NCBI GenBank assembly: GCA_021463195.1
Contig: JAJTXZ010000040.1
Span: forward strand, 1 to 42,452
Length of the DNA: 42,452 bases
Direction of reading: 5' to 3'
DNA from: Anaerolineae bacterium
GTDB taxonomy: Bacteria > Chloroflexota > Anaerolineae > UBA4142 > SHND01
The translations under genes and the position numbers were made by a program. Below the pieces are notes generated by a model that was given only the letters and a program-made list of their open reading frames with translations, had not been told where the DNA came from and did no database searches. Below are positions 256 through 28,977 of the stretch, in pieces. Numbering within the stretch: the stretch's first letter is position 1; each line of letters starts with the position of its first letter.

Positions 256-420
256 ATGGCTAAAAAAGAAAATCGCCTCGTCGTGACCATGGCGTGCAAT
301 GATTGCAAGCGTCGCGACTATACTACGCAAAAAAATAAAAAGAATACAACCGCGCGTTTGGAATTGAAAAAATACTGCCGGTTCTGCCGCAAGCATACCG
401 TGCATCGCGAGACCAAGTAA
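256..420 (+). CDS. rpmG: 50S ribosomal protein L33
   Basis: A 54-residue basic protein of the large ribosomal subunit that is too short for most ORF cut-offs. The start at 256 reads [20 protein letters not shown], and the protein has two CxxC pairs (CNDC and CRFC), so it is the zinc-binding 'C+' form of L33. It ends HTVHRETK. It sits between tuf and secE, the usual location, and secE begins one base after its stop codon, so the two are probably translationally coupled. Confidence 0.95.
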
Positions 421-421
421 T

Positions 422-652
422 ATGGCAGACAAAAAGCAGGCGCGCTTGACCCAAGAGGTCCAGCCGGAAAATCGGTTCGTCCAATTTTACCGCGAGACCG
501 CCGCCGAATTGCGCAAGGTGGTTTGGCCCACGCGCGATGAAGCGGTTCGGCTTACTATAATTGTGGTCGCCGTAGTGATTGCGATGAGTATCTTTCTCGG
601 CGCAATTGATTATGCGTTGACGCAAATTATGCGAATTATTTTGGTGCGCTAG
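422..652 (+). CDS. secE: Preprotein translocase subunit SecE
   Basis: A 76-residue single-span SecE of the SecYEG protein-export channel. The soluble amphipathic part (FYRETAAELRKVVWPTRDEA) carries the diagnostic 'ELRKVVWPTR' motif, followed by one transmembrane helix at about residues 43-65. The length is typical of the short bacterial form. It starts one base after rpmG and nusG begins two bases after its stop, so rpmG-secE-nusG is one tight operon. The ribosome binding site would have to lie inside rpmG and is weak. Confidence 0.95.
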   Translation: MADKKQARLTQEVQPENRFVQFYRETAAELRKVVWPTRDEAVRLTIIVVAVVIAMSIFLGAIDYALTQIMRIILVR

Positions 653-654
653 CA

Positions 655-1581
655 ATGAACGAGTTTGAGCAAAACGCGCCCGATACCGCGGAAACGATTG
701 ATGCCGCAGTGGAGGAACAGAATCCGACGACAGAAGATTTGACTGGCGCCACCGAATCTGCGCTTGATATTACCATGGGGGATATGGAGACAGATTTGCC
801 CGCGGCGGCAAGCGCTGAGGTCGCGCCCGCGGCAGAGATCGAAATCCCGTGGGGCGACATGACCGCTGAAGCGGAAACAAAAGCCGAAGCGGAAAAAGAT
901 AACGATGCGATGGCGGACAGCGCGCAGGACGAACCTGTCGCAGCCGACGATGCTTCGCAAGAGTCAGAGCCAGAGCCGGACGCGCCCGTCAAACGCGTTT
1001 GGTACGTCGTGCATTGTTATTCGGGTTACGAAAACAAGGTCAAAAAGGGTTTAGAGCAGCGCATCAATTCACTGAGCTTGCAAAATTCTATTTTTCGCGT
1101 CGTCGTGCCGATTGAGCGCGAAGTGGAAATTCGCGAAGGACAGCGCAAAAATATCGAACGCCGCGTATTTCCGGGCTATATTTTGGTCGAGATGATGGAA
1201 TTGGTGGACCGGGAAACTTTGACGGCGGACGCAACCGAAGCGCAGAAAAAACTAGCTGCCCAGTCGGATGAAGTGTGGTATGCGGTTCGCAACACGCCCG
1301 GCGTTACAGGGTTTGTGAGTTCCGGCGACCAGCAGCGTCCGGTGCCATTGCGCCAAGATGAAGTGGACAAGATTCTCAAGCGCATGGAGAGCGAAGAGCC
1401 CAAAGTGCATGTATCGTTCCGCGTGGGCCAAGCCGTGAATATCATTGACGGCCCCTTTGCCGAATTCAAAGGCAACGTGGAAGCGGTGGATATGCTCAAA
1501 GGCAAAGTGCGCGTGCTTGTTTCATTCTTTGGGCGCGAAACTCCCGTAGAGTTAGATTTACTTCAAGTAGAGAAAGTATAG
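655..1581 (+). CDS. nusG: Transcription termination/antitermination protein NusG with acidic N-terminal extension
   Basis: NusG links RNA polymerase with ribosomes and Rho. The core starts near residue 113 (VKRVWYVVHCYSGYENKVKK, the NGN domain), and a KOW domain lies at about 255-308 (VGQAVNIIDGPFAEFKGNV). At 308 residues it is far longer than the roughly 180-residue E. coli protein. The extra 112 residues are a low-complexity stretch rich in Asp, Glu and Ala, presumably disordered. A loop of about 20 residues inside the NGN domain (LTADATEAQKKLAAQSDEVW) is also longer than usual. ATG 655 is the first start after secE. The stop region merges with a heptamer-word palindrome. Confidence 0.95.
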   Translation: MNEFEQNAPDTAETIDAAVEEQNPTTEDLTGATESALDITMGDMETDLPAAASAEVAPAAEIEIPWGDMTAEAETKAEAEKDNDAMADSAQDEPVAADDASQESEPEPDAPVKRVWYVVHCYSGYENKVKKGLEQRINSLSLQNSIFRVVVPIEREVEIREGQRKNIERRVFPGYILVEMMELVDRETLTADATEAQKKLAAQSDEVWYAVRNTPGVTGFVSSGDQQRPVPLRQDEVDKILKRMESEEPKVHVSFRVGQAVNIIDGPFAEFKGNVEAVDMLKGKVRVLVSFFGRETPVELDLLQVEKV

Positions 1582-1661
1582 TGATTAGTTATTAGTTATT
1601 AGTCATTCGTCAGGCTTGATGTATTTACTAATAACTAATCGTTAATGACTAGTAACTAGTT
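1582..1661. repeat. Heptamer-word palindrome, nusG-rplK gap
   Basis: The left arm is four consecutive 7-mers (TGATTAG, TTATTAG, TTATTAG, TCATTCG) at 1582-1609. After a short spacer, five 7-mers of the complementary family (ACTAATA, ACTAATC, GTTAATG, ACTAGTA, ACTAGTT) fill 1627-1661 and run directly into the rplK ATG at 1662. The element takes up the whole gap, so rplK has no recognisable Shine-Dalgarno sequence. Confidence 0.85.
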
Positions 1662-2087
1662 ATGGCGAAAAAAGTCAAAGCATTGGTCAAACTCGCAATT
1701 CCGGCTGGCAAAGCCACGCCCGCGCCGCCGGTCGGCACCGCGCTTGGGCCGCACGGCATCAACATTATGCAGTTTACCAAAGAATACAACGCGCGCACTG
1801 CCAAAGACGCTGGCACGATCGTGCCGGTTTTGATTACGATTTATCAAGACCGTTCGTTTACGTTTGAATTGAAATCGCCGCCCGCGGGCGAATTATTGAA
1901 AAAAGCCGCCGGCGTGGAAAAGGGTTCGGGTGTGCCGAATCGTAACAAAGTCGGCGTTGTCTCACGCAAGCAAGTGCGCGAAATCGCCGAAAAGAAAATG
2001 AAAGACCTCAACGCGGTGGACGTCGAAGGCGCAATGAAAATGATTGAAGGCACCGCGAAAAATATGGGGATTGAAGTTAAAGATTAG
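1662..2087 (+). CDS. rplK: 50S ribosomal protein L11
   Basis: A 141-residue L11, part of the GTPase-associated centre of the large subunit. The N-terminal sequence [20 protein letters not shown] and the following [17 protein letters not shown] carry the Pro-rich hinge region that binds thiostrepton and 23S rRNA. The C-terminal RNA-binding half ends MGIEVKD. The length is normal. The last codons (AAA GAT TAG) overlap the first heptamer word of the next palindrome (AGATTAG), so the stop codon belongs to the repeat. The start codon abuts the previous palindrome with no visible ribosome binding site. Confidence 0.97.
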
Positions 2088-2148
2088 AGACTGGAAACTA
2101 GAGCGAGTTGAGCGGATAATTCTCCAGTCTCTAGGACTCTAATCTCCG
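2081..2148. repeat. Heptamer-word palindrome, rplK-rplA gap
   Basis: Four words (AGATTAG, AGACTGG, AAACTAG, AGCGAGT) at 2081-2108 face four complementary-family words (TCTCCAG, TCTCTAG, GACTCTA, ATCTCCG) at 2121-2148, so both arms are 28 bp. The first word contains the TAG stop of rplK. No T-tract follows. Confidence 0.8.
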
Positions 2149-2195
2149 AATAGTGGAAGCGCGACAACGCGCGCCAATTACCACAAGGAGCAAGC

Positions 2196-2921
2196 ATGGG
2201 ACACGGCAAGAAATATCAAGAAGCGGTAAAATTGGTCGAGCTGGACAAGGAATATTCGCCCGCGGAAGCGGTGGCGCTCGCCAAGAAAAGCGCGTATGGC
2301 AAATTTAATCAAACGGTCGAAGCGCATTTCAAGACCGGGTTGGATGTCAAACAGGCGGACCAACAAGTGCGCGGTGTAGTGCTTTTGCCGAACGGCACGG
2401 GCAAGACGGTGCGTATTCTCGTTTTTGCGGAGGGCGAAGCGGCGCGCGTGGCGCAAGAAGCCGGCGCGGATATTGTGGGCGGCGATGATTTAATCAAGCG
2501 TATTCAAGAAGGTTGGATGGAGTTTGATCTCGCCATCGCCATGTCCGACATGATGGGCAAAGTCGGTAAAAGCGGTTTGGGCAAGACGCTGGGACCGCGC
2601 GGTTTGATGCCCAGCCCTAAAGCGGGAACGATTTTGCAGCAGCCCGCGCAGCTGCCGCAACTAATTAACGAGAGTCGTTTGGGGCGCGTCGAATTCAAAA
2701 CCGACAAGACCGGCGGCATTCACAGCATCATTGGCAAAACCAGTTTTACCGAACAACAACTGGTCGAAAATTTCGCGGCGTTGATGGATGCGCTCAACAA
2801 AGCGAAACCTGCCGGCGCCAAGGGCGTCTATTTAAAGAAAATTTCGTTGGCGTCCACAATGGGCCCCGGCGTGCGCGTGGATGTCAATGCCGCGCAAAAT
2901 CTGAAACCGCAGACGACATAA
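2196..2921 (+). CDS. rplA: 50S ribosomal protein L1
   Basis: A 241-residue L1, the protein of the mobile L1 stalk near the E site and, in many bacteria, a translational repressor of its own mRNA. Recognisable segments are GHGKKYQEAVKLVE at the N-terminus, the VLLPNGTGKTVRILVFAEG region of domain I, LGKTLGPRGLMPSPKAGT (L1 signature) and the C-terminal TMGPGVRVDVNA. The start is supported by a good AAGGAG Shine-Dalgarno at 2185-2190, six bases before ATG 2196. The length is as expected. Confidence 0.97.
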   Translation: MGHGKKYQEAVKLVELDKEYSPAEAVALAKKSAYGKFNQTVEAHFKTGLDVKQADQQVRGVVLLPNGTGKTVRILVFAEGEAARVAQEAGADIVGGDDLIKRIQEGWMEFDLAIAMSDMMGKVGKSGLGKTLGPRGLMPSPKAGTILQQPAQLPQLINESRLGRVEFKTDKTGGIHSIIGKTSFTEQQLVENFAALMDALNKAKPAGAKGVYLKKISLASTMGPGVRVDVNAAQNLKPQTT

Positions 2922-2926
2922 TGGAT

Positions 2927-2954
2927 TTGCCTTTCGGCGCGTTTGGCATACAAT
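2927..2954 (+). promoter_or_regulatory. Candidate sigma-70 promoter of rplJL
   Basis: TTGCCT at 2927-2932, a 16-nt spacer and TACAAT at 2949-2954 resemble a housekeeping promoter. It starts just after the rplA stop and would initiate transcription just before the L10 leader structure. The match is by eye only. Confidence 0.4.
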
Positions 2955-2969
2955 AGCGTCGTTTGCGCG

Positions 2970-3135
2970 TGAAACGAAAATTAAATACGCCACAGATAGC
3001 CGGTCGTTCGCGCATTGCGCGAACATAAACGCACCTGCCGAGGCAAAAAACAATTTCATTACGCGCGCGCGCGATTGAAGATTGCATCTCTTGCTTGGGC
3101 GGCTGTCTGTAGCCAAAAAGCAAGAGATTTTTTTA
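2970..3135 (+). promoter_or_regulatory. L10 (rplJ) leader: ribosomal protein autoregulatory RNA with terminator
   Basis: The gap upstream of rplJ holds the conserved CCTGCCGAGGCAAAA block (about 3033-3047) of the bacterial L10 leader, the mRNA site bound by the L10(L12)4 complex. It is followed by a perfect 11-bp hairpin (ATCTCTTGCTT at 3086-3096 with its complement at 3118-3128) and a T-run at 3128-3134. The design implies feedback by premature termination. The 5' boundary is approximate. Confidence 0.8.
3086..3134 (+). terminator. Intrinsic terminator/attenuator in the rplJ leader
   Basis: An 11-bp perfect stem, with an inner GGCT/AGCC extension, ends in TTTTTTT at 3128-3134. It lies about 50 nt before the rplJ start, so it works as an attenuator rather than as the end of rplA. 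Confidence 0.85.
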
Positions 3136-3186
3136 TTGACGTGGAAAACCGCTTTGGCTTCGCCAAAGGTTGAGGAGGTGAGCAAG

Positions 3187-3714
3187 TTGTCAGTTACACG
3201 TGAACGCAAAGCTGATTTGGTCGCGCAGTTGACTCGAGAATTGCAAGAGGCGCAAGCCGTTATTATCACCGGCTATCGCACTTTGAAAGTGTCCGATTTG
3301 CAAGGCATCCGCAATGAATTGCGCGGAATGAAGGCAGGATATCATGTCGCTAAAAATACGTTGCTTGAACTCGCGCTAAAAGACGCGGGGCTGCCAGTGC
3401 CGACTGATCTGTTGGATGGTCCGACGGCGGTGGCATTTCTGCACGATGACCTTTCTGGTCCGGCGAAAAAGCTGACCGCGTTTTTCAAAGAAAAAGAATT
3501 GCCAATCAAAGGCGCTATTGTCGGGCAAAATATTTATGATGCCCAAGGCGTTGAAAATTTGGCGAAACTGCCGACGCGCGCAGAGCTATACGGACAATTT
3601 TTGGGTTCGCTGCAAGGTCCTGCCGCGAGTTTGGTGGGCGTCTTGAACGGCGTGTTGGCGCAGTTGGTCTATACGCTGCAAGCCAAAGTCGAGCAGTCCG
3701 AAGCGCAAGCATAA
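3187..3714 (+). CDS. rplJ: 50S ribosomal protein L10
   Basis: L10 anchors the L7/L12 dimers to form the ribosomal stalk. The sequence SVTRERKADLVAQLTRELQE, the GYRTLKVSDLQGIRNELR segment and LYGQFLGSLQGPAASLVGVLN are typical. The frame is open further upstream into the attenuator, but a strong Shine-Dalgarno (AGGAGGTG, 3173-3180) lies six bases before TTG 3187. This makes TTG the best start and gives 175 residues, the usual size. GTG 3178 would overlap the Shine-Dalgarno. The C-terminal helix that binds L7/L12 ends QAKVEQSEAQA. Confidence 0.95.
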   Translation: MSVTRERKADLVAQLTRELQEAQAVIITGYRTLKVSDLQGIRNELRGMKAGYHVAKNTLLELALKDAGLPVPTDLLDGPTAVAFLHDDLSGPAKKLTAFFKEKELPIKGAIVGQNIYDAQGVENLAKLPTRAELYGQFLGSLQGPAASLVGVLNGVLAQLVYTLQAKVEQSEAQA

Positions 3715-3721
3715 GTTTCAG

Positions 3722-3792
3722 TTAGAATTTTGATTTTTGATTTTCGATTGCAGCGCGTTTGGCGAAATTGAAAATCAGAAATCACAAATCAA
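3722..3792. repeat. Heptamer-word palindrome, rplJ-rplL gap
   Basis: This is the cleanest example in the window. Four words (TTAGAAT, TTTGATT, TTTGATT, TTCGATT) fill 3722-3749. A 15-nt GC-rich spacer follows at 3750-3764. Four complementary words (AAATTGA, AAATCAG, AAATCAC, AAATCAA) fill 3765-3792. Both arms are exactly 28 bp. The element ends six bases before the rplL Shine-Dalgarno. Confidence 0.9.
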
Positions 3793-3809
3793 AAAACAAG
3801 GAAAAAAAT

Positions 3810-4214
3810 ATGGCTTCCGATAAAGTGCAAGCAATTATTGATTCGCTCGATAACTTGAGCGTACTCGAAGTGGCAGAGCTTTCCAAAGCGCTGCAAGAAC
3901 ATTGGGGTGTCAGCGCCGCCGCGCCCGTCGCAGTTGCCGCGATGCCCGGCGCAGGCGCCGCTGCGGCAGGCGCCGCCGCCGCGCCTGCCGCCGAAGAGCA
4001 GACCGAGTTCGATGTCATCTTGAAAGACGCGGGCTCGCAAAAAATTCCGGTCATCAAAGTCGTGCGCGAACTCGTCGCGGGTCTTGGTTTGAAAGAAGCC
4101 AAAGAACTCGTCGAAAGCGCGCCGCAAGCGGTGAAAAAGAGCGTCTCTAAAGAAGAAGCCGCCGAAGCCAAAAAGAAATTGGAAGAAGTCGGCGCCAGCG
4201 TCGAAGTCAAGTAA
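3810..4214 (+). CDS. rplL: 50S ribosomal protein L7/L12
   Basis: A 134-residue stalk protein that recruits translational GTPases. The N-terminal dimerisation domain ([20 protein letters not shown]) is followed by a long Ala/Gly/Pro hinge at about residues 36-68. The C-terminal factor-binding domain has [20 protein letters not shown] and [15 protein letters not shown]. The frame is open to an upstream ATG at 3759, but that start would be inside the palindrome. ATG 3810, with AAGGA at 3798-3802, gives the family-standard N-terminus. Confidence 0.97.
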
Positions 4215-4279
4215 GAGACCAGAGATTAGAGCTTGGAGAGAATCAGCGCGTCAATCTTTGCGCGTTGATTCCTCCAAGC
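4214..4279. repeat. Word tract plus GC-rich stem-loop after rplL
   Basis: Four words (AGAGACC, AGAGATT, AGAGCTT, GGAGAGA) at 4214-4241 run into a long stem. GCTTGGAG at 4231-4238 pairs with CTCCAAGC ending at 4279, and AATCAGCGCG pairs with CGCGTTGATT. No T-run follows. It probably marks the 3' end of the rplJL message. Confidence 0.7.
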
Positions 4280-4297
4280 GCCAGATGCGCAAGAAAG

Positions 4298-4325
4298 TTG
4301 ACGCGCGTGCGCAAATGAATACAAT
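4298..4325 (+). promoter_or_regulatory. Sigma-70-type promoter of the tRNA-Ala genes
   Basis: TTGACG at 4298-4303, a 16-nt spacer and TACAAT at 4320-4325 lie 11 nt before the 5' end of the first tRNA. This is a near-consensus promoter at the right distance for a stable RNA. Confidence 0.7.
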
Positions 4326-4336
4326 TAAATCGTTTT

Positions 4337-4409
4337 GGGGCTGTAGCTCATTTGGGAGAGCGCTGCAATCGCACTGCAGAGGTAGTGGGTTCAAATCCCA
4401 TCAGCTCCA
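4337..4409 (+). tRNA. tRNA-Ala (anticodon CGC)
   Basis: A complete 73-nt cloverleaf. The acceptor stem GGGGCTG/CAGCTCC contains the G3:U70 pair that is the alanine identity element. The D-arm, a CTGCA/TGCAG anticodon stem with loop ATCGCAC (anticodon CGC at 4370-4372), and the T-arm with loop TTCAAAT are all present. The discriminator is A and no CCA is encoded. It reads GCG, a codon used very heavily in this window. Confidence 0.95.
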
Positions 4410-4413
4410 CTAT

Positions 4414-4480
4414 TCTTTATTTTAGATTTTTGATTGCGATACAGCGCGCAAGTCTAAAAGCTCGTCAAAAAGCTAAAATA
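4414..4480. repeat. AT-rich word palindrome between the two tRNA genes
   Basis: Degenerate 7-mers (TCTTTAT, TTTAGAT, TTTTGAT) at 4414-4434 face TCTAAAA, AAAAAGC and TAAAATA words at 4453-4480 across a GC-rich spacer. It has the same design as the rplJ-rplL element but is less regular. Confidence 0.5.
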
Positions 4481-4486
4481 TTTTAT

Positions 4487-4562
4487 GGGGCTATAGCTCA
4501 ATTGGGAGAGCGCTACACTGGCAGTGTAGAGGTCGTCGGTTCGAGCCCGATTAGCTCCACCA
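4487..4562 (+). tRNA. tRNA-Ala (anticodon GGC)
   Basis: The acceptor stem GGGGCTA/TAGCTCC again has G3:U70. The anticodon stem CTACA/TGTAG encloses loop CTGGCAG, with anticodon GGC at 4520-4522. The T-loop is TTCGAGC. The discriminator A at 4559 is followed by C-C-A at 4560-4562, so CCA is encoded or matches by chance. It reads GCC/GCU. It is probably cotranscribed with the first tRNA-Ala. Confidence 0.95.
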
Positions 4563-4564
4563 CA

Positions 4565-4645
4565 GATTTATGATTGTGGATTTGTGATTTCTGATTTTAG
4601 AAACACAAACCCGCAGCGTAAATCGTAAATCAAAAATACAAAACG
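4565..4645. repeat. AT-rich heptamer-word palindrome before the leucine T-box
   Basis: Five words (GATTTAT, GATTGTG, GATTTGT, GATTTCT, GATTTTA) at 4565-4599 are followed by a spacer and then GTAAATC, GTAAATC, AAAAATA and CAAAACG at 4618-4645. Confidence 0.75.
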
Positions 4646-4768
4646 CTTTGACCGGGAGCAGTAGGTCATCTCCGCAGCGAGTTGGGAAAGACAAGGTGCA
4701 AGCCCAACACGACGCGCCAACGGAGAGCGCATAGACCGAACTCGCCCGCGAGCTGCAATCTTGAAATC

Positions 4769-4796
4769 TGGTTGGAGACTGGAGACTAGAGATTGA
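4769..4796. repeat. Heptamer tract inside the T-box leader
   Basis: Four 7-mers (TGGTTGG, AGACTGG, AGACTAG, AGATTGA) make a 28-bp tract between T-box stem I and the antiterminator. They are the same word family as in the rplK-rplA and argG-argH gaps. Confidence 0.8.
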
Positions 4797-4830
4797 CGTT
4801 AACCTCGCACGTTACGCGAATCGAGTGAAG

Positions 4831-4870
4831 TGATTCGGGGATTCGGTGATTCGGTGATTGGATTATTCCG
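4831..4870. repeat. Octamer tract inside the T-box leader
   Basis: Five 8-mers (TGATTCGG, GGATTCGG, TGATTCGG, TGATTGGA, TTATTCCG) are in tandem just before the T-box core. They have the same A/G-rich word character as the 7-mers but a period of 8. Confidence 0.75.
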
Positions 4871-4924
4871 TCGCTTGTCACCAGCCACTTTCGCTTAAAC
4901 TGGGTGGTACCGCGGAGATTCATG

Positions 4925-4959
4925 AACCTTCGTCCCAATTTGGGATGGAGGTTTTTTTT
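4925..4959 (+). terminator. T-box terminator of leuS
   Basis: AACC..TCCCAA pairs with TTGGGA..GGTT, followed by an eight-T run at 4952-4959. The 5' half overlaps the region that would form the antiterminator with the T-box core. Confidence 0.85.
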
Positions 4960-5040
4960 ATCTCTCGCCTCTGTACAATATTGGACGCAAATGACACATT
5001 CGTTGTGGTTCAATAAAACGGCGACGGAATTTTTTATTGG

Positions 5041-5070
5041 ACGCGGATGAACGCGGATAAACGCGGAGAA
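5041..5070 (+). repeat. Decamer tandem repeat (ACGCGGATGA) x3
   Basis: ACGCGGATGA, ACGCGGATAA and ACGCGGAGAA are three in-phase 10-mers in the gap between the T-box terminator and leuS. Related CGGATAA/CGGATGA words occur near 26010-26160. Confidence 0.75.
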
Positions 5071-5146
5071 AAAACAATAATCGGATTGTTTTGCATTGCG
5101 GAACAATGAAATTCAAAAATTGGAAATTTTGAACGGAGCATGAATC

Positions 5147-7813
5147 ATGGAAACGCAAGTAACTATCCCACCATCGCACGAACGCACTAGCGCGCCAAAA
5201 TACGTCCCCCAAGACTTTGAAGCGGGTTGGATGCAAAAATGGGAAGCGGACGAATTGTACAAAACCGCGCCGGCGGATGAACGTCCCAAAGCGTACATCT
5301 TGGATTTCTTTCCGTATCCATCGGGTGATGGTTTGAGCGTGGGACATTGCCGCAATTATGTGCCGACAGATGTGCTGTCGCGTTACTTTCGCATGAAGGG
5401 CTATAACGTTTTGCATCCGATGGGTTGGGACGCGTTCGGCTTGCCGGCGGAGAACGCGGCAATCAAAATGAAAACGAATCCCGCGAAATTGATCGCGCAA
5501 TATTCCGCGAATTACAAACGTCAATTTCGTTTGATTGGGATTTCGTTCGATTGGTCGCGCGAAATCAATTCGTCCACGCCCGAATACTATCGCTGGACGC
5601 AGTGGATTTTTTTGAAACTGTATCACGCGTGGTATGACTCGCGCGAAAATCGCGCGCGCTCCATTTCGACATTGGAAACCGAATTGAGCGCCAACGGCAC
5701 GCAAAACATTCCGAACGCGCGCGTAGAAATTTCGGCGGACGCATGGAACGCGTTCAACAAAAAACAGCGCAGCGAATTTTTATCCAATTTTCGTTTGGCG
5801 TACCGCAAGCCATCGGTGGTGAATTGGGACCCGGTTGACAAGACGGTATTGGCGAATGAAGAGGTGGTTGACGGGCGCGGCTGGCGCAGCGGCGCGTTGG
5901 TCGAGAAAAAAGTTTTGCAGCAGTGGTTCTTTCGCATCACCGAGTACAGCGAACGCTTGATCAATGATTTGGACGCGATTGATTGGCCCGAACATATCAA
6001 GTTGATGCAAAGAAATTGGATTGGCAAAAGCGTCGGCGCGGAAGTAGATTTTCAAACCGATGCGGGCGCGCTGCGAATTTTCACGACGCGTCCCGATACG
6101 TTGTGGGGCGCGACGTTCATGGTGTTGGCGCCCGAACATCCCTACGTCGAAAAATTGGCGACGGCTGACCACAAAGCGCGCGTGAATCAATACGTTAAAG
6201 AGGCAAAGGCAAAAACCGAAGTTGAACGCGCGGAGGAAGGTAAAGACAAAACGGGCGTGTTCACGGGCGCATACGCGACGAATCCCGTGAACGGCGAGAA
6301 AATTCCGATTTGGGTCGCGGACTATGTGATGATGAGTTATGGCACGGGCGCGATTATGGCGGTGCCCGCGCATGACCAACGCGATTTTGAATTTGCGCGC
6401 AAATTTCATTTGCCGATACGCGTGGTGATTCAACCCGAAGGGGAATCGTTGAATGCGGATGAAATGGAACGCGCGTTTCCGCACGATGGCGTGATGGTCA
6501 ATTCGGGAATTTTTGACGGAACGAGCGCGGATGTCGCGGTGGAAAACGTAACGCGTTGGTTGGAAGAAAAAAGCATCGGCGCGAAACGCGTCAATTACAA
6601 ATTTCGCGATTGGGGCATCAGCCGCCAGCGTTATTGGGGCACGCCGATTCCGATTGTTCACACGGACGATGGCGAAGTCGCAATGGCTGAAAATAATTTG
6701 CCGATCGAATTGCCGAATGTGGATTCGTACGAACCCACCGCGACAGGCGAATCGCCGTTGGCAAACATTCCCGAATTTGTGAATGTGACATTGCCCGACG
6801 GAACGCGCGGGCGACGCGAGACGGACACGATGGGAACGTTCGCGTGTTCGTCGTGGTACTTTATGCGTTTCACTGACCCGCGCAATGACCAAGAGCCATT
6901 TCAAACAAAAGAGGTGAACTATTGGCTGCCCGTTGACACCTACGTCGGCGGCGCGGAACACGCGGTCATGCACTTGCTGTACGCGCGTTTTTGGACCAAA
7001 GTATTGTACGACTTGGGCATTGTCTCGTTCATCGAACCATTTCAACGCTTGCGGAATCAAGGCATGATTTTGTCGCCGCAGATGAAAGACGGCAAGTACG
7101 AAAAAATGTCAAAGTCCAAAGGCAATGTCATCACGCCCGACGAAATGGTGGAACAATTTGGCGCGGACGCGCTGCGCGCGTACGAAATGTTCATCAGCGA
7201 TTTCACCGTCGCGACGCCGTGGCAAACGGACGGCTTGGCAGGCACGCATCGTTGGCTGACGCGCGTGTGGAATTTGTTCTTGGAACCCGCGCGTGAAAAT
7301 TTGCCGCAAGCGAATGAGGAACAAATCAAATTGCTGCGCCGCGCGCTGCATCAAACCTTGCGCAAAGTCGAAGGTGACATCAATGCTTTCGCCTTCAACA
7401 CCGTCATTTCGTCTTTGATGACGTTGACGAATGTGTTGGTAAAAGCCAAAGATTCGGCAACCTATCCCGACGCGGTGTGGGGCGAAGCGATGAAGACGCT
7501 GCTGTTGATGTTGGCGCCGATTGCGCCGTTCATGGCAGAAGAAATCTGGACGCGCTCGGGGAACGCGTACAGCGTGCATCAACAAAAATATCCCGTGTAC
7601 GACGCGGACGCGGCAAAAGAGGAAACGTTCACGTTAATCGTTCAAGTCAACGGCAAAGTGCGCGGCAAAATCGAATTGCCTGTTGGCGTGAGCGAAGAGG
7701 GCGCGAAAGAAAAAGCGTTCGATGACGCGAATGTGAAAAAGTGGGTGGAAGGGAAAACGATTGCGAGCGTAGTGTACGTGCCGGGGCGATTGATGAATGT
7801 GGTAGTAAAGTGA
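5147..7813 (+). CDS. leuS: Leucyl-tRNA synthetase
   Basis: A class I synthetase of 888 residues that charges tRNA-Leu with leucine. YPSGDGLSVGHCRNY contains the HIGH-type signature (SVGH, residues 64-67), and KMSKSKGN at 653-660 is the KMSKS loop. The editing (CP1) domain includes TTRPDTLWGATFMVLAPEHP and MSYGTGAIMAVPAHD. ATG 5147 is preceded by GGAGC. An extra segment of about 45 residues (about 166-212) sits in the ZN-1 region before LAYRKPSVVNWDPVDKTVLA, and the zinc cysteines usual there are absent. Expression is controlled by the upstream leucine T-box. Confidence 0.97.
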   Translation: METQVTIPPSHERTSAPKYVPQDFEAGWMQKWEADELYKTAPADERPKAYILDFFPYPSGDGLSVGHCRNYVPTDVLSRYFRMKGYNVLHPMGWDAFGLPAENAAIKMKTNPAKLIAQYSANYKRQFRLIGISFDWSREINSSTPEYYRWTQWIFLKLYHAWYDSRENRARSISTLETELSANGTQNIPNARVEISADAWNAFNKKQRSEFLSNFRLAYRKPSVVNWDPVDKTVLANEEVVDGRGWRSGALVEKKVLQQWFFRITEYSERLINDLDAIDWPEHIKLMQRNWIGKSVGAEVDFQTDAGALRIFTTRPDTLWGATFMVLAPEHPYVEKLATADHKARVNQYVKEAKAKTEVERAEEGKDKTGVFTGAYATNPVNGEKIPIWVADYVMMSYGTGAIMAVPAHDQRDFEFARKFHLPIRVVIQPEGESLNADEMERAFPHDGVMVNSGIFDGTSADVAVENVTRWLEEKSIGAKRVNYKFRDWGISRQRYWGTPIPIVHTDDGEVAMAENNLPIELPNVDSYEPTATGESPLANIPEFVNVTLPDGTRGRRETDTMGTFACSSWYFMRFTDPRNDQEPFQTKEVNYWLPVDTYVGGAEHAVMHLLYARFWTKVLYDLGIVSFIEPFQRLRNQGMILSPQMKDGKYEKMSKSKGNVITPDEMVEQFGADALRAYEMFISDFTVATPWQTDGLAGTHRWLTRVWNLFLEPARENLPQANEEQIKLLRRALHQTLRKVEGDINAFAFNTVISSLMTLTNVLVKAKDSATYPDAVWGEAMKTLLLMLAPIAPFMAEEIWTRSGNAYSVHQQKYPVYDADAAKEETFTLIVQVNGKVRGKIELPVGVSEEGAKEKAFDDANVKKWVEGKTIASVVYVPGRLMNVVVK

Positions 7814-22777: not shown

Positions 22778-25099
22778 ATGGAAAATGATTCCCCCTCCTC
22801 TGCCCCGCGCGGCGACACAAATATCGCCAACATTGGCGCGGGCGCGCGAGTCAAACAATTCGCACAGGGTAGTAACATCACCCAAATCGAAGGGTACACC
22901 GCCGAACAAGTTCAAACGCTGCTCGCCGAAATTCGCGCGTCGTTCCAACCCAAACCGTTCGATGGACGTTCCCCGTATGTGGGTCTCGCCTCATTTCAAG
23001 AACAAGACGCCGACCGTTTTTTTGGACGCGAAAAATTAACGCAAGAACTTGTCGCGCGCATCGAAACGGCGCGCTTGCTCGTGATTGCCGGACCTTCGGG
23101 CAGCGGCAAATCGTCACTCGCGCGCGCGGGCTTGCTCCACGCGTTGCGAAACGGCGCGCGCGCGGGCAGTGAAAATTGGTTGTACGAAATTCTCACGCCC
23201 GGACGACATCCGCTTCAACAACTCGCCCGCGTCGTTTCCGCCCTCGCCAAAAGCACGAACGCGGGCGATGAAATTCAACAACGCGGGCGCGACGACGCGA
23301 CGCTATTGCATCGCTGGGCGGACATTGCGCTCGGCGACCAAAAAACGCGCCGCGCGATTTTGCTCGTTGACCAATTTGAAGAGAGTTTCACGCAAGCGGA
23401 CCAAACCGAACGCGCGGCATTTTTCAATCAATTGCTCTACGCCGCCACAATCGAAAACGGACGCGTCACTCTTGTCGTTTGCACGCGTTCCGACTTTATC
23501 GGCAACTGGGCAGCGTATCCGAATCTGAACGCGCAACTCGCGCACGGCGTCAATCAAGTTCCGCCGATGCAGCCGGACGAATTGGTGAGCGCGATTGCGC
23601 GTCCCGCGCTCCAGGTTGGTTTGCAAATTGACCCCGCGCTCGTCAAACAAATTTTGGACGACATGCGCGCCGCGCCCGGCGCGTTGCCGTTGATGCAATT
23701 CGCGCTCGACGATTTGTTCCAATACGAAAAAAGTCAAGGCGGCGTCATTGCGCTCACGCTTGAAGATTATTTGAAACGCGGCGGATTGGAAAAAGCATTG
23801 ACGCGCCACGCCGACGCGGAATTTGCGAAACTGGGCACGGACGAACAAAACATCGCGCGCGCGATTTTCACGCGCTTGATTGAACCCGGACCCGGCAATG
23901 TGGACACGCGGCGCACGGCGCGTTTGCAAGAAATCGTTTCTGCCGACGCGAACGCCGCCCAAGTGAAACCGGTGATTGCGAAACTCGCGGACGCGCGGCT
24001 CGTGACGACGGACCAAAAGGATGCGGACGAAACTGTCACGCTCGCGCACGAACGCTTGATTGACGCGTGGGGCTGGCTGCGGAAATTGGTGGACGAGAAC
24101 CGCGATGCGATTGCGCTGCAAAATCAAATCAATGATGATGCAAAAGAATGGGAACAGCACAGACGCGATGCAAGTTATCTGTACGTCGGCGCGCGTCTGG
24201 CGACGGCGCAAGAGGAAGTGGAGAAAAAGAAAATTGCGTTGAGCGCGGTAGGGCAGGAGTTTGTGCAAGCGGGTACAACTGCGCGGCAAGCCGTCCGTCA
24301 AGCGCGTCAACGCCAGCGGAGACTTGTTTCTCTTGCTGGATTTGCTTTTGTTATTTTGCTTGTCAATATCGCGTATGAGCCAATTCGACGAGAGTTTCTA
24401 CGACAACAAGCTCTCGTGCTCAAGCCAATTCCGATCTCCGATTCAAAAGTAGTTCTGGGCGATGCAAGAAGTGATGGAAACAGGGCAGACTATTTGCCCC
24501 TTGGTTCACAACTTGTGAAATCATTTTCTATTGAACCATTAGAAGTAACTAATGCACGCTACTTGCTCTGCATCGAAGCATTGGCGTGTTCGGCACCAAT
24601 CGCGTTCAAATCCTCATACTCAGATAGCAAGTATGCGAATTATCCTGTTGTCAATGTTTCAGCAATCCAAGCAAGTCAATTTTGCGAATGGTTGGGGCGT
24701 CGTTTGCCTACGGAGCGTGAATGGGAACGCGCCGCTCGCGGCACTGCCGCATTTCCTTGGCCCTGGGGTATAGAAACACCGGTCCCTACTCGAAGCAATC
24801 TATATTACCGAGGATTACCAGCTCCATTAGTGCAACGTGTAGGTAGTTATCCCGACGACAAATCATCTGAATCCGTATTTGATTTGGCTGGCAATGTTTC
24901 GGAATGGACACGCTCATCGTTTGATTTAGAACAACCTGATTGGTCAGAAAATGATGAGAAATTACCGCCCACTCTCACAATAAAAGGAGGTGATGTAAAA
25001 ACGCGACCAGAACACATGGGGAATACAATTGCGTATCGTTTGGAAAGAAAGCCCCTTTCGTTCGATGAGACAGTTGGTTTTCGTTGTGTAGCACATTGA
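22778..25099 (+). CDS. nSTAND NTPase fused to an FGE-like (formylglycine-generating-enzyme-like) domain
   Basis: 773 residues from ATG 22778; the frame is open to 22559 but lacks a better start. Residues 12-38 (GDTNIANIGAGARVKQFAQG...) are a short repetitive N-terminal element seen in other STAND proteins. The NTPase has SPYVGLASFQEQDADRFFGRE, Walker A GPSGSGKSS (105-113) and Walker B RRAILLVDQFEESF (191-204). A TM helix is at about 516-533. Residues 556-773 resemble an FGE/sulfatase-modifying domain (NVSAIQASQFCEWLGRRLPT, VFDLAGNVSEWT, VGFRCVAH), but the RGGSW core reads IKGGDV and the catalytic cysteines are missing. The base composition turns AT-richer near 24320. A signalling/conflict-type role is inferred. 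Confidence 0.85.
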   Translation: MENDSPSSAPRGDTNIANIGAGARVKQFAQGSNITQIEGYTAEQVQTLLAEIRASFQPKPFDGRSPYVGLASFQEQDADRFFGREKLTQELVARIETARLLVIAGPSGSGKSSLARAGLLHALRNGARAGSENWLYEILTPGRHPLQQLARVVSALAKSTNAGDEIQQRGRDDATLLHRWADIALGDQKTRRAILLVDQFEESFTQADQTERAAFFNQLLYAATIENGRVTLVVCTRSDFIGNWAAYPNLNAQLAHGVNQVPPMQPDELVSAIARPALQVGLQIDPALVKQILDDMRAAPGALPLMQFALDDLFQYEKSQGGVIALTLEDYLKRGGLEKALTRHADAEFAKLGTDEQNIARAIFTRLIEPGPGNVDTRRTARLQEIVSADANAAQVKPVIAKLADARLVTTDQKDADETVTLAHERLIDAWGWLRKLVDENRDAIALQNQINDDAKEWEQHRRDASYLYVGARLATAQEEVEKKKIALSAVGQEFVQAGTTARQAVRQARQRQRRLVSLAGFAFVILLVNIAYEPIRREFLRQQALVLKPIPISDSKVVLGDARSDGNRADYLPLGSQLVKSFSIEPLEVTNARYLLCIEALACSAPIAFKSSYSDSKYANYPVVNVSAIQASQFCEWLGRRLPTEREWERAARGTAAFPWPWGIETPVPTRSNLYYRGLPAPLVQRVGSYPDDKSSESVFDLAGNVSEWTRSSFDLEQPDWSENDEKLPPTLTIKGGDVKTRPEHMGNTIAYRLERKPLSFDETVGFRCVAH

Positions 25100-25134
25100 C
25101 GGGGGCCCAAATTCATGATTGATGGAGGAAACCG

Positions 25135-25770
25135 ATGGCACGCAAAGTGACAGGCACAAAAATCACCCAAAAATTTGGAGAGATCAAATCAAATCGTTCC
25201 ACCACATTTTCTATACTTCCTGATTCAAATGGCAATGTTCTCAAGATTCAACTGACAGCCACAGACGAGCAACAGCTACGGAGATTCATCCAATACCAAG
25301 TACGTCAAAACAGAAAGGGTATTGGCGTACAATTTTGGGTCATAAAGCGCAGCAGAAGAGTACCAGTTGCAACAATCTCTTACAAGTGTTTGGATATATC
25401 CAACAAGCAAATCGATTGGAAAGGGTTGAGCATATCCCTACAAAAATCAGGGTACCGTTATAAAGGCATTGGGAATATCAAGATGCCATGGGAAGTTTTG
25501 CAGAATGAATTCCTTGATTTCCCACTCGACAATGAGGACATCATCGACGTTGAATTTTCAGTAACAGCCGGTGCAATCAAGCTTCAACTATACGAATTCA
25601 CCGACCTGACGAGAAGTTTAAGCAAGCTATGTGCCGAAAAAGAGATTACTCCGATTGATGGGACGGTAAAAATTGTCGGAGAAAAAAGGCACATTGGGAA
25701 CTGGAACATACGAATAATCGGGCTCAAATCCAAAAATCAGGGCACTTTCCGATCAACTATGATGTGGTGA
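25135..25770 (+). CDS. Unrecognised protein downstream of the STAND gene
   Basis: 211 residues from ATG 25135, with a good GGAGG at 25124-25128. It lies 35 nt after the STAND stop on the same strand, so the two are probably one operon. The sequence is Lys/Ile/Gln-rich and beta-rich (TFSILPDSNGNVLKIQLTAT, VEFSVTAGAIKLQLYEF) with no signal peptide or membrane segment. I cannot assign a family. Its codons are AT-rich, unlike the GCG-rich genes around it, which suggests recent transfer together with the STAND C-terminus. Confidence 0.75.
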   Translation: MARKVTGTKITQKFGEIKSNRSTTFSILPDSNGNVLKIQLTATDEQQLRRFIQYQVRQNRKGIGVQFWVIKRSRRVPVATISYKCLDISNKQIDWKGLSISLQKSGYRYKGIGNIKMPWEVLQNEFLDFPLDNEDIIDVEFSVTAGAIKLQLYEFTDLTRSLSKLCAEKEITPIDGTVKIVGEKRHIGNWNIRIIGLKSKNQGTFRSTMMW

Positions 25771-25940
25771 TTTCAAGTTGCCGCTTTCAGAGCGAGTAAT
25801 CATGGAATGTATTCGAGCTCTGCATTGTGGAACACGACAACACCCGTACAAATTTTGATTTTCGGCACTGCTTTAGCAAGAAAATCTACTCCGGCAAGAA
25901 GCAACGCTCAGCGGTCATGACGTTCGAGCGTTGCTTCTTC

Positions 25941-25997
25941 TCACCCCGTATTCCGCAACCCCGCCGCAATCCCATTGATCGTCACCACCATCGCGTC
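25941..25997 (-). pseudogene. Duplicated 57-bp remnant of the ppc 3' end
   Basis: Bases 25941-25997 are identical to 26194-26250, the last 18 codons plus stop of ppc. The copy begins exactly at the stop codon (TCA on this strand) and lies 253 bp away from the functional end. Confidence 0.92.
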
Positions 25998-26189
25998 GCG
26001 GCGAGCGGACAACGGATAATGAAAGCGGATGAACGGATGCGCGTATCCTATCCGTTCATCCGCTTTTCCATCCGTTGGCAGTCGCTCTCATCATCGCGTC
26101 GCGGTCAGCGGTCAACGGATAATAAAAACGGATAAACGAATGCGCGCGTTCTATCCGTTTATCCGCTCTTTTATCCGTTGGCAGTTCTC
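25988..26189. repeat. Two tandem ~100-bp palindromic units next to ppc
   Basis: Unit 1 (about 25988-26087) and unit 2 (about 26088-26189) share CATCGCGTCGCGG at the start, CAACGGATAAT, GCGC and ATCCGTTGGCAG at the end. Within each, CGGATAA/CGGATGA words face ATCCGTT/ATCCGCT words, giving a palindrome. The units are similar but not identical. Confidence 0.8.
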
Positions 26190-26193
26190 CCCC

Positions 26194-28977
26194 TCACCCC
26201 GTATTCCGCAACCCCGCCGCAATCCCATTGATCGTCACCACCATCGCGTCCATCAATTCCGCGTGTCCTTTGGCATCATTTTTCTCCAACGCGCGCAATC
26301 GTCGCATCAATTCGATTTGAATAAAATTTAACGGGTCCACGTACGGATTCCGCAAATGAATCGCGCGCTGCAACACGGGTTCATTGTCGAGAATGTCATT
26401 TTGTTCCGTCAATCTTAAAATCCACGCGCGCGTGCGGTCGAATTCCGCGCGGATATCGCCAAAAATTTCCGCGCGCAGATTTTCATCTTGCACCAATTCC
26501 GCGTATTGCGCGGCGATGCCCATGTCCGCTTTACCCAACGCGTTTTGCGCGTTCTGCAGCATCGTATTGAAAAATTGCCACTCGCGCGTCATCGCGCGCA
26601 AAATTTCGATTTTTGAATTTGCCCCCGGCAAAGCGGCAGAATCTCCGGCGACGGCGTCGAACGCCGCGCCCAAACCGTACCAGCCCGGCAAATTAAAGCG
26701 CGACTGCATCCAACTAAACACCCATGGAATCGCGCGCAGCGTTTGCACCGAGCGCGTTGGCTTGCGGCGCGCGGGACGCGAACCGATACGCAGTTGTTCG
26801 ATTTCTTGAATCGGCGTCGCCTGTTCCCAAAATTCGATAAAGCGCGGTTTCTCGTACACCAGCGCGCGATACGCGGCTAAACCCGCATCCGACAATGCCT
26901 GCATCATCGCGCGCCAATCCGCGCGTAAATCCTCCGGCGGCGTCATGCTCGCGCGCAACACCGCATAAATAATTTGTTCCAAATGCCGATGCGCGAGCTG
27001 CGGATTACTATAGCGCGCGGCAAGCACTTCGCCCTGCTCTGTCATCCGAAAACGGCCGTCGAGCGTGCCGGGCGGTTCCGCCAAAATCGCGCGCCAGGGC
27101 GGTCCGCCGCCGCGCGCCACACTGCCGCCGCGTCCATGAAACAGAGTCAGTTCCACGCCGTGCGCGCGACACGTTTCCGCGAGCGCGGTTTTGGCTTGAT
27201 ACAATGCCCAATTTGCCGCGATCAAGCCGCTCTCCTTGTTGCTGTCCGAATAGCCGACCATCACCTGAAGTTTCATGCCGCGCGCTCGCAAATGTCGAGC
27301 GTACGCGGCATTAGCGAACAATTCCCGCAAAATCGGCGCGGCGGCTTGTAGAGCTTGCATCGTTTCAAACAATGGCACAATGTCGAGTTGGTCGGCGATG
27401 CCCGCCCAATGCGCCAAAAACAAAACCGCCAACACATCGCTCGCCGCCTGCGCCATCGAAATCACAAAACCGCCAAGCGGCGCCGCGCCATAATTTTCAT
27501 GCACGCGCGCCAACATTTGAAATAACGCGATGGTTTCATTGGTTTCATCGCTCAAACCGCCGCCTTGGCGCAAAACTTGCGGCGGCTGCTGAATCAAATA
27601 CGTCAACAAGCGCGCCTGCTCCGCGCGCGTCATTTGCGCCAAATGCGGCGTCACGCGATGCGCGTACAACAACGCGTCCACATCCGCGAGCAAACGTGAC
27701 GCCTCTTGCCGTAAATCTAAATGCGCCGTGTGAAAACCAAACACCGCGACCTGTTCGCGCAAGGTTCGTAAATCCGCCGCCGCAATCACCTGTCCGCGGT
27801 CGGCGCTCAAGCTGTCGTCCAACATTCGCAAAGCCGCGTCAAATTGCGCGGCGTCGCGTAGCGCGGGCAGCGCTGTCTCATTTTTGCCGAGCAAACGTTC
27901 CGTCATTTTATCGCGCGTCGTCGCGTCGAGCTCATGCGCGATGCTTTCCAATTTCAAGCGGTAGCTTTCCAGCGGATAGCGTTCGCGCAACAATGCCAAA
28001 TGCGCGTGCGGGTGTTCCAAATCTTTTTGCAGCGACGCCTGCAATGCTTCTGAAACGCGCGCGCGTTGTCTGGACACGCTAAGGTCGCGCGCCAAGGCGC
28101 GCGTCGCCGCGCGATAATTTTCCACTGCGAGGCCGCGCTGGAGCCGCAACGCTTCCGCCGTTACCGCCGTCGTTACAAATGGATTGCCGTCGCGGTCGCC
28201 GCCAATCCACGAACCGAACGAAATAAAATGCGCGGGCAGCGCGAGATCGGGATACGTCGCCGCGAGCGCCTCGCGCAAATCCGCGTGCAAGCGCGGCGCA
28301 ATCGTCCACAAGGTGGACTCGAAAAAGAACAGACCGGTGCGCGCTTCGTCGGTGGCTTCCGGACGCGTGCTGCGCGAACGGTCGGTCAGCCACAGCGCAT
28401 GAATTTCCGCGCGCAATTTATTTACGTGCGCCGCGCGTTCGCGCGGCGCGAGGTCGGCGCGGTCCAATTCGTACAGCGACGCTGCCATCCGCTCAAGTTT
28501 GGAGAGAATCGTGCGCCGTTTCGCTTCGGTCGGATGCGCGGTAAAAACGAGCTCGACGCGCAAGCGCGCCAGCAGCGCCGCGACGCGTTCCGCCGAAATA
28601 TTTTCCGCGCGAAATTCTTGCAGCGCGCGCGCGATGGATTCATCGCGTGAAGCGTCCGCCAGCGCGCGTTCGCGCGCGCGCAAGACGCGCACGCGCTGCT
28701 GTTCTTCCGCCAAATTCACCAAATCGAAATAAGCCGTGAACGCGAGCGCAATCAATTCGAGCGTGGCGACATCGTGTTGGCTGATTTGCGCGGCGAGCGC
28801 GCGCGCCGCGTCCGCGTCGCCGCCGCGGCGCGCTTTAGCTAGCGCGCGCACGCGTTCCTCTGTCGCAAACAACTGGTCGCCCTCTAAATCGCGCAGCGTC
28901 GCGCCCAATATGCCGCCAAGTAAATGAATGTCGCGCGAAAGCGGCGACGGTTCGGTTTCGCTCAAAGTTCTAGTCAT
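26194..28977 (-). CDS. ppc: Phosphoenolpyruvate carboxylase
   Basis: 927 residues; it converts PEP and bicarbonate to oxaloacetate (anaplerosis). Catalytic motifs: VFTAHPTEAKRRTILSKLER (His138 region), FHGRGGSVARGGGP (PEP-binding loop) and RNPYVDPLNFIQIELMRRLR near the end. The C-terminus (VVTINGIAAGLRNTG) is the usual allosteric-site end, intact. The start MTRTLSETEPSPLSRD fits the family. It is divergent from the LCP gene across 53 bp. A copy of its last 57 bp lies downstream (25941-25997). Confidence 0.97.
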   Translation of the reverse strand: MTRTLSETEPSPLSRDIHLLGGILGATLRDLEGDQLFATEERVRALAKARRGGDADAARALAAQISQHDVATLELIALAFTAYFDLVNLAEEQQRVRVLRARERALADASRDESIARALQEFRAENISAERVAALLARLRVELVFTAHPTEAKRRTILSKLERMAASLYELDRADLAPRERAAHVNKLRAEIHALWLTDRSRSTRPEATDEARTGLFFFESTLWTIAPRLHADLREALAATYPDLALPAHFISFGSWIGGDRDGNPFVTTAVTAEALRLQRGLAVENYRAATRALARDLSVSRQRARVSEALQASLQKDLEHPHAHLALLRERYPLESYRLKLESIAHELDATTRDKMTERLLGKNETALPALRDAAQFDAALRMLDDSLSADRGQVIAAADLRTLREQVAVFGFHTAHLDLRQEASRLLADVDALLYAHRVTPHLAQMTRAEQARLLTYLIQQPPQVLRQGGGLSDETNETIALFQMLARVHENYGAAPLGGFVISMAQAASDVLAVLFLAHWAGIADQLDIVPLFETMQALQAAAPILRELFANAAYARHLRARGMKLQVMVGYSDSNKESGLIAANWALYQAKTALAETCRAHGVELTLFHGRGGSVARGGGPPWRAILAEPPGTLDGRFRMTEQGEVLAARYSNPQLAHRHLEQIIYAVLRASMTPPEDLRADWRAMMQALSDAGLAAYRALVYEKPRFIEFWEQATPIQEIEQLRIGSRPARRKPTRSVQTLRAIPWVFSWMQSRFNLPGWYGLGAAFDAVAGDSAALPGANSKIEILRAMTREWQFFNTMLQNAQNALGKADMGIAAQYAELVQDENLRAEIFGDIRAEFDRTRAWILRLTEQNDILDNEPVLQRAIHLRNPYVDPLNFIQIELMRRLRALEKNDAKGHAELMDAMVVTINGIAAGLRNTG

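Follow-up and report, generated by a model that had tools for sequence, protein, structure and literature searches.

Does the C-terminal sensor of a STAND NTPase travel together with the small gene that follows it, and what might such a pair do? This question is raised by a locus on contig JAJTXZ010000040.1 (assembly GCA_021463195.1) of an Anaerolineae bacterium, which was analysed over its full 42,452 nucleotides (the window). With moderate confidence, we favor an NLR-like STAND receptor that is anchored in the membrane and whose recognition end forms, together with a dedicated small partner protein, a portable cassette of two genes.

Architecture of the nSTAND1-TM-FGE receptor

The first gene of the pair combines an nSTAND1 NTPase (PF20703, E 3e-112 by profile search) with an FGE-sulfatase domain at residues 571–771 (PF03781, E 7e-30 by profile search). 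By reading, the Walker A (GPSGSGKSS) and Walker B (AILLVDQFEE) motifs of the NTPase are both intact, and the arginine-rich run RQARQRQRR directly precedes the predicted transmembrane (TM) helix LVSLAGFAFVILLVNIAY. The coordinates of these and the other features of the locus are collected in Table 1.

A preliminary description of this DNA had proposed that the FGE-like domain lacks its catalytic cysteines and may be a recognition domain. Alignment to true FGEs bears out the first point: the domain has KGGDVKTRPEHMGNT where true FGEs have RGGSYLCHDSYCNRY, and the active-site Cys pair (GGSxxCxxxxC region) is gone. The structural cysteines are kept. Because the catalytic cysteines are missing, ligand binding appears more likely than catalysis, which supports a role in recognition.

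No Pfam or NCBIfam domain was found in residues 1–65. The N-terminal motif of the STAND protein, NIANIGAGARVKQFAQGSNI, may act as an adaptor: the genome also encodes a CHAT-TCAD2 protein that matches it (49% over 49 aa, E 6e-10, a single sequence match). The CHAT-TCAD2 protein and the TM protein that follows it (L008, G000:C116:15694-18822) both contain a motif of the NIANIGAGA type found in the STAND N-terminus.

Table 1. Features of the receptor–partner locus, in window coordinates
Feature	Position	Strand	Basis or remark
nSTAND1-TM-FGE gene, 773 aa	22778..25099	+	domain search
N-terminal short motif GDTNIANIGAGARVKQFAQGSNITQIE	22811..22891	+	also in CHAT-TCAD2 protein L008, same genome
nSTAND1 NTPase	22973..24172	+	residues 66–465; same locus of two congeners ~80% DNA-identical
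Replaced block (sensor–partner cassette)	24257..25937	+	GC 0.45; homology to congeners at the locus absent
Predicted TM helix LVSLAGFAFVILLVNIAY	24323..24376	+	by reading; position conserved in alignment
FGE/C-type-lectin-fold domain without catalytic Cys pair, structural Cys kept	24488..25090	+	profile search and alignment
Ribosome-binding site GGAGGA, 5 nt before partner start	25124..25129	+	by reading
Partner gene, 211 aa, new family	25135..25770	+	relatives L070:2262-2885, L085:2804-3541 (−), L086:2876-3631 (−)
Terminator-like hairpin with perfect arms of 14 bp; closes the cassette	25896..25939	+	z −5.9
ppc (PEP carboxylase)	26194..28977	−	marks the right side of the locus in congeners

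A composition break at the TM helix

The receptor gene changes composition at its TM helix: GC is 0.58 before it and 0.46 after it, and GC3 0.63 and 0.34 (with the GC3 split placed at residue 512). In a sliding-window profile, GC falls at about position 24300 and recovers at about 25900, remaining at 0.52 and above afterwards. Taken by part, GC is 0.55–0.60 in the NTPase half, 0.46 in the tail and 0.42 in the partner gene. The resulting 1.67-kb block is the lowest-GC stretch in the window (0.450); the next lowest elsewhere reaches 0.483, and the rest has a mean of 0.547 (sd 0.026). The break that had been read from the letters in the preliminary description, with an NTPase half resembling its neighbors and an AT-richer FGE half and next gene from the TM helix onward, is therefore present in GC and GC3 as well as in the sliding window.

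FGE domains are not GC-poor as such, since 13 others in this genome have GC values of 0.46–0.60 and GC3 values of 0.38–0.66. Besides that of the receptor, an AT-rich FGE domain of the same genome was seen at L037 (G000:C100:61796-62296; GC 0.46, GC3 0.38).

Replacement of the sensor end at a fixed site

In congeners, the locus is bounded by a tRNA cluster (Gly and Met in all, Pro in two) and by ppc. In the window, tRNAs are absent at this locus and the left neighbor is a dinB-type gene. Two congeners, G003 and G005, carry a STAND gene here, and their NTPase halves share about 80% DNA identity with the window up to positions 24256–24264. This homology break coincides with the composition break, and similarity to both congeners resumes only at 25919–25938, at the end of ppc. 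In G005 (L050), the orthologous NTPase half (77% protein identity) bears a WD40 tail, with nothing before ppc and the partner absent. In G003 (L049), the NTPase half is 80% identical and runs into a different FGE tail, accompanied by a lipoprotein gene (159 aa). G003 and G005 resemble each other more closely in their NTPase halves (87% identity) than either resembles the window (80 and 77%, respectively), though their tails differ. Because homology ends at the GC break, and because the closest NTPase halves, those of G003 and G005, carry different tails, the comparison indicates that the tail is replaced at a fixed place. The exchange of C-terminal sensors suggested earlier for this protein thus gains support.

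The site also holds other contents. A second contig of G003 (L057) encodes a 1224-aa HEAT protein, an HTH-like gene and an HNH gene in place of STAND, and the ppc ends of the two G003 contigs are 96% identical; G004 (L058) has only the tRNAs and an HNH gene, with no STAND gene. The tRNA-Met to ppc site looks like a hotspot.

Two side observations concern the same region. The two contigs L057 (G003:C442) and L049 (G003:C230) present the tRNA-Met to ppc locus as two alleles in one assembly with wholly different contents. In the window, about 58 bp of the ppc 3′ end is duplicated (25938–25997 and 26184–26242), and two palindromic REP/MITE-like copies of the GGATAA...TTATCCG type lie between the duplicated ends.

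The partner gene

The partner gene starts 35 bp after the receptor stop codon. Given this short gap, the GGAGGA before its start and the strong hairpin after it, receptor and partner are likely to form an operon. A sigma-70 promoter scan gave matches at chance level only.

The impression that the partner belongs to no recognizable family was upheld, with no Pfam, NCBIfam, PADLOC or PHROG family above cut-off. A toxin–antitoxin reading of the pair found no known toxin or antitoxin family for the partner in these four collections. A Pfam hint to CBM_20 (17 bits, below cut-off) was rejected; the homologue in G402, described below, gives EF-Tu D3 instead, and both hints are regarded as noise because homologous partners give different weak matches. 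Profile searches of the PDB yielded nothing credible, and AlphaFold on the partner alone gave no usable model (pLDDT 34). Sequence searches of genome contigs, viral contigs, plasmids and phages returned no match. The partner is unique in the genus, and a direct search of several hundred further genomes produced one match, in G402. By reading, it has no signal peptide and is thus probably cytoplasmic. As the FGE domain is probably extracytoplasmic, direct contact between the two is not obvious, a point that the preliminary description did not raise.

Linkage of tail and partner in other genomes

The partner sequence alone led to G402 (E 5e-21), which belongs to another family. In this genome, an nSTAND1-TM-FGE gene ends 34 bp before the partner. 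Identity between the window and G402 is 25% for the NTPase halves, 46% for the tails and 28% for the partners, and composition breaks at the same junction (GC 0.636 to 0.455, with 0.423 in the partner). In a search of 396 genomes of the class using the tail only, four matched at E below 1e-60, namely the window's genome and G402, both of which are in the search model by construction, and G686 and G613; all four have the partner. In G686 and G613, which were found via the tail alone, a small gene lies 67–87 bp downstream of the tail, and its products score above all 500 shuffles against the G402 partner (z 5.5 and 7.5). The window partner is linked to these two only through G402, its direct comparison with them being not significant (z 1.7–1.9). 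Profile comparison of the two partner pairs gave P 0.006 and an HH probability of 6%.

A phylogeny of 34 FGE domains unites the four tails (support 100/100) and leaves the FGE tail of G003 and all others sampled outside. In plasmids, only distant FGE domains were found, with at most 34% identity among the matches listed. Since the same tail clade and a related partner stand behind differing NTPase bodies, the TM-FGE tail and its partner are, judged by sequence comparison, a conserved, portable, AT-rich cassette of which four instances are known. Composition and alignments further show that the cassette is foreign in composition, absent from the same locus of congeners and separate in history from the NTPase body. 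A joint transfer of the two genes had been proposed, with the absence of any other genome carrying both as the counter-evidence; G402 has both, G686 and G613 add two more, and the partner relatives behind the same tail clade in these three genomes support the proposal.

As a separate observation, two nSTAND genes with nearly the same NTPase half stand in tandem at the G686 locus (L085; G686:C148, reverse complement 383-6890). One has a WD40-like tail and the other the FGE tail and partner, and GC falls at the junction of the first one too.

Relation to known systems

Counter-invader systems that combine a STAND NTPase, nSTAND1 included, with an FGS (FGE) domain have been known since 2021 (PMC8195603); DGR-diversified nSTAND1/NACHT-CLec sensors of multicellular bacteria followed in 2024 (PMC10907252). 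Two features of the STAND-FGS systems of the former report, a STAND NTPase of NACHT, MNS or nSTAND1 type and a C-terminal FGS/FGE domain, are both found here. In those systems the nSTAND1 NTPase is likewise joined to a C-terminal FGE/FGS domain, for which binding of invader molecules was proposed, and an N-terminal adaptor leads to effectors in trans (PMC8195603); in contrast, the present protein has no named EAD and has a TM helix between NTPase and FGE domain. The DGR-diversified sensors share the nSTAND1-FGE architecture, some with periplasmic FGE domains (PMC10907252), whereas the present gene is not a DGR target and its diversity appears to arise through exchange of the whole cassette. 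Avs and bacterial NACHT defense proteins are similar in their tripartite plan with a variable C-terminal sensor (PMC10907252) but differ in that the present protein lacks an N-terminal effector domain and a TPR sensor and has a TM helix and a partner. The PADLOC matches of the STAND protein consisted of weak P-loop matches, with no Avs family model among them. Catalytic FGE (SUMF1/FGE) belongs to the same fold family (PF03781 match above) and differs in its catalytic Cys pair, which is missing here.

The earlier suggestion of an undescribed two-gene module therefore holds in part. STAND-FGE (FGS) systems, including nSTAND1, are known from both reports. For a conserved partner family linked to the tail, or for exchange of tail plus partner, no mention was found in the searched passages of the literature, PMC8195603 and PMC10907252 among them, or in the libraries.

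The same genome contains a complete DGR at G000:C109 (L071:6227-11402), comprising a NACHT-FGE target with variable repeat, a template repeat and a reverse transcriptase. Its repeats are 84% identical over 123 bp, with differences mostly at template A positions.

Proposed mechanism and alternatives

We propose that the cassette consists of the TM helix, a non-catalytic FGE (C-type-lectin-fold) ligand-binding domain and the small partner protein, and that it would be exchanged by recombination in flanking homology, provided by NTPase sequence on the left and the ppc end on the right. Because an arginine run precedes the single TM helix (positive-inside rule, N-in), the NTPase is predicted to face the cytoplasm and the FGE domain the outside; the conserved structural cysteines agree with this. 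Ligand binding would lead to oligomerization of the NTPase, whereupon the N-terminal motif could recruit an effector with the same motif. No effector gene lies inside the receptor–partner operon. As the N-terminal motif recurs in the CHAT-TCAD2 protein, the latter is the best effector candidate, which may be engaged by like-to-like motif contact, as judged from one sequence match. Amyloid signaling motifs and EADs act by such contact in other STAND systems, according to PMC8086366, PMC8195603 and PMC10907252. The partner may work in the cytoplasm as a co-factor for this tail clade only, be it as a co-sensor, an adaptor or an inhibitor.

A stronger form of this proposal, to which we give roughly an even chance, is that the TM-FGE tail and partner are an autonomous two-gene cassette moving as a unit among unrelated STAND bodies, with repeated exchange at the fixed tRNA-Met to ppc site and a partner of a new family that is an obligatory, tail-specific co-sensor or inhibitor.

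We infer a role in defense for receptor and partner. The same architecture could instead serve a membrane signaling or envelope-sensing receptor with a regulatory partner, which we consider unlikely: the STAND gene is the sole defense gene seen among its neighbors, PADLOC families gave no good match and the locus adjoins metabolic genes, but replacement of the recognition part, rare and patchy spread, AT-rich foreign composition and the alternative contents of the tRNA–ppc site are typical of conflict systems. It is less probable again that the tail alone was exchanged and that the partner is an unrelated AT-rich passenger of the same DNA. The partner is indeed rare, fast-evolving and without a family, and the neighboring gene in G003 encodes a different protein at the same locus; against this, three other genomes, two of them identified without use of the partner, have a partner relative directly 3′ of a tail from this clade, on NTPase bodies that differ. 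G402 already weakens the passenger reading.

Slightly more doubtful still is an origin of the break without transfer, through a mutational or amino-acid bias local to FGE tails or through frequent gene conversion raising the GC of the NTPase half. Among related STAND genes, too, some have a WD40 tail slightly poorer in GC3 than the NTPase half before it, but GC3 drops by 0.23–0.42 at the junction in all four cassette carriers, as against −0.01 to 0.17 in relatives with other tails. Most other FGE domains of the genome have normal GC, the NTPase half is level with the neighboring genes and the tail below them, and DNA homology to congeners stops at the break. Finally, the reading of the FGE end as an antigen receptor hypermutated by reverse transcription was rejected as very improbable, since, although the genome has one DGR with its own NACHT-FGE target and nSTAND1-FGE proteins are diversified by DGRs elsewhere (PMC10907252), its only reverse transcriptase lies on another contig and nothing in the window matches the template-repeat region of the DGR.

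On the favored reading, a receptor with an exchangeable sensor–partner cassette, one locus with natural controls presents a STAND sensor end and a second gene exchanged together, and supplies a new partner protein family along with a defined tail clade. Should sensing require the partner, models of STAND-FGE systems built on a single protein would be incomplete, and the receptor–partner pair would offer a direct route to what FGE-type sensors recognize. Repeated cassette exchange at a fixed site, if true, would be a way for bacteria to renew immune specificity without a retroelement.
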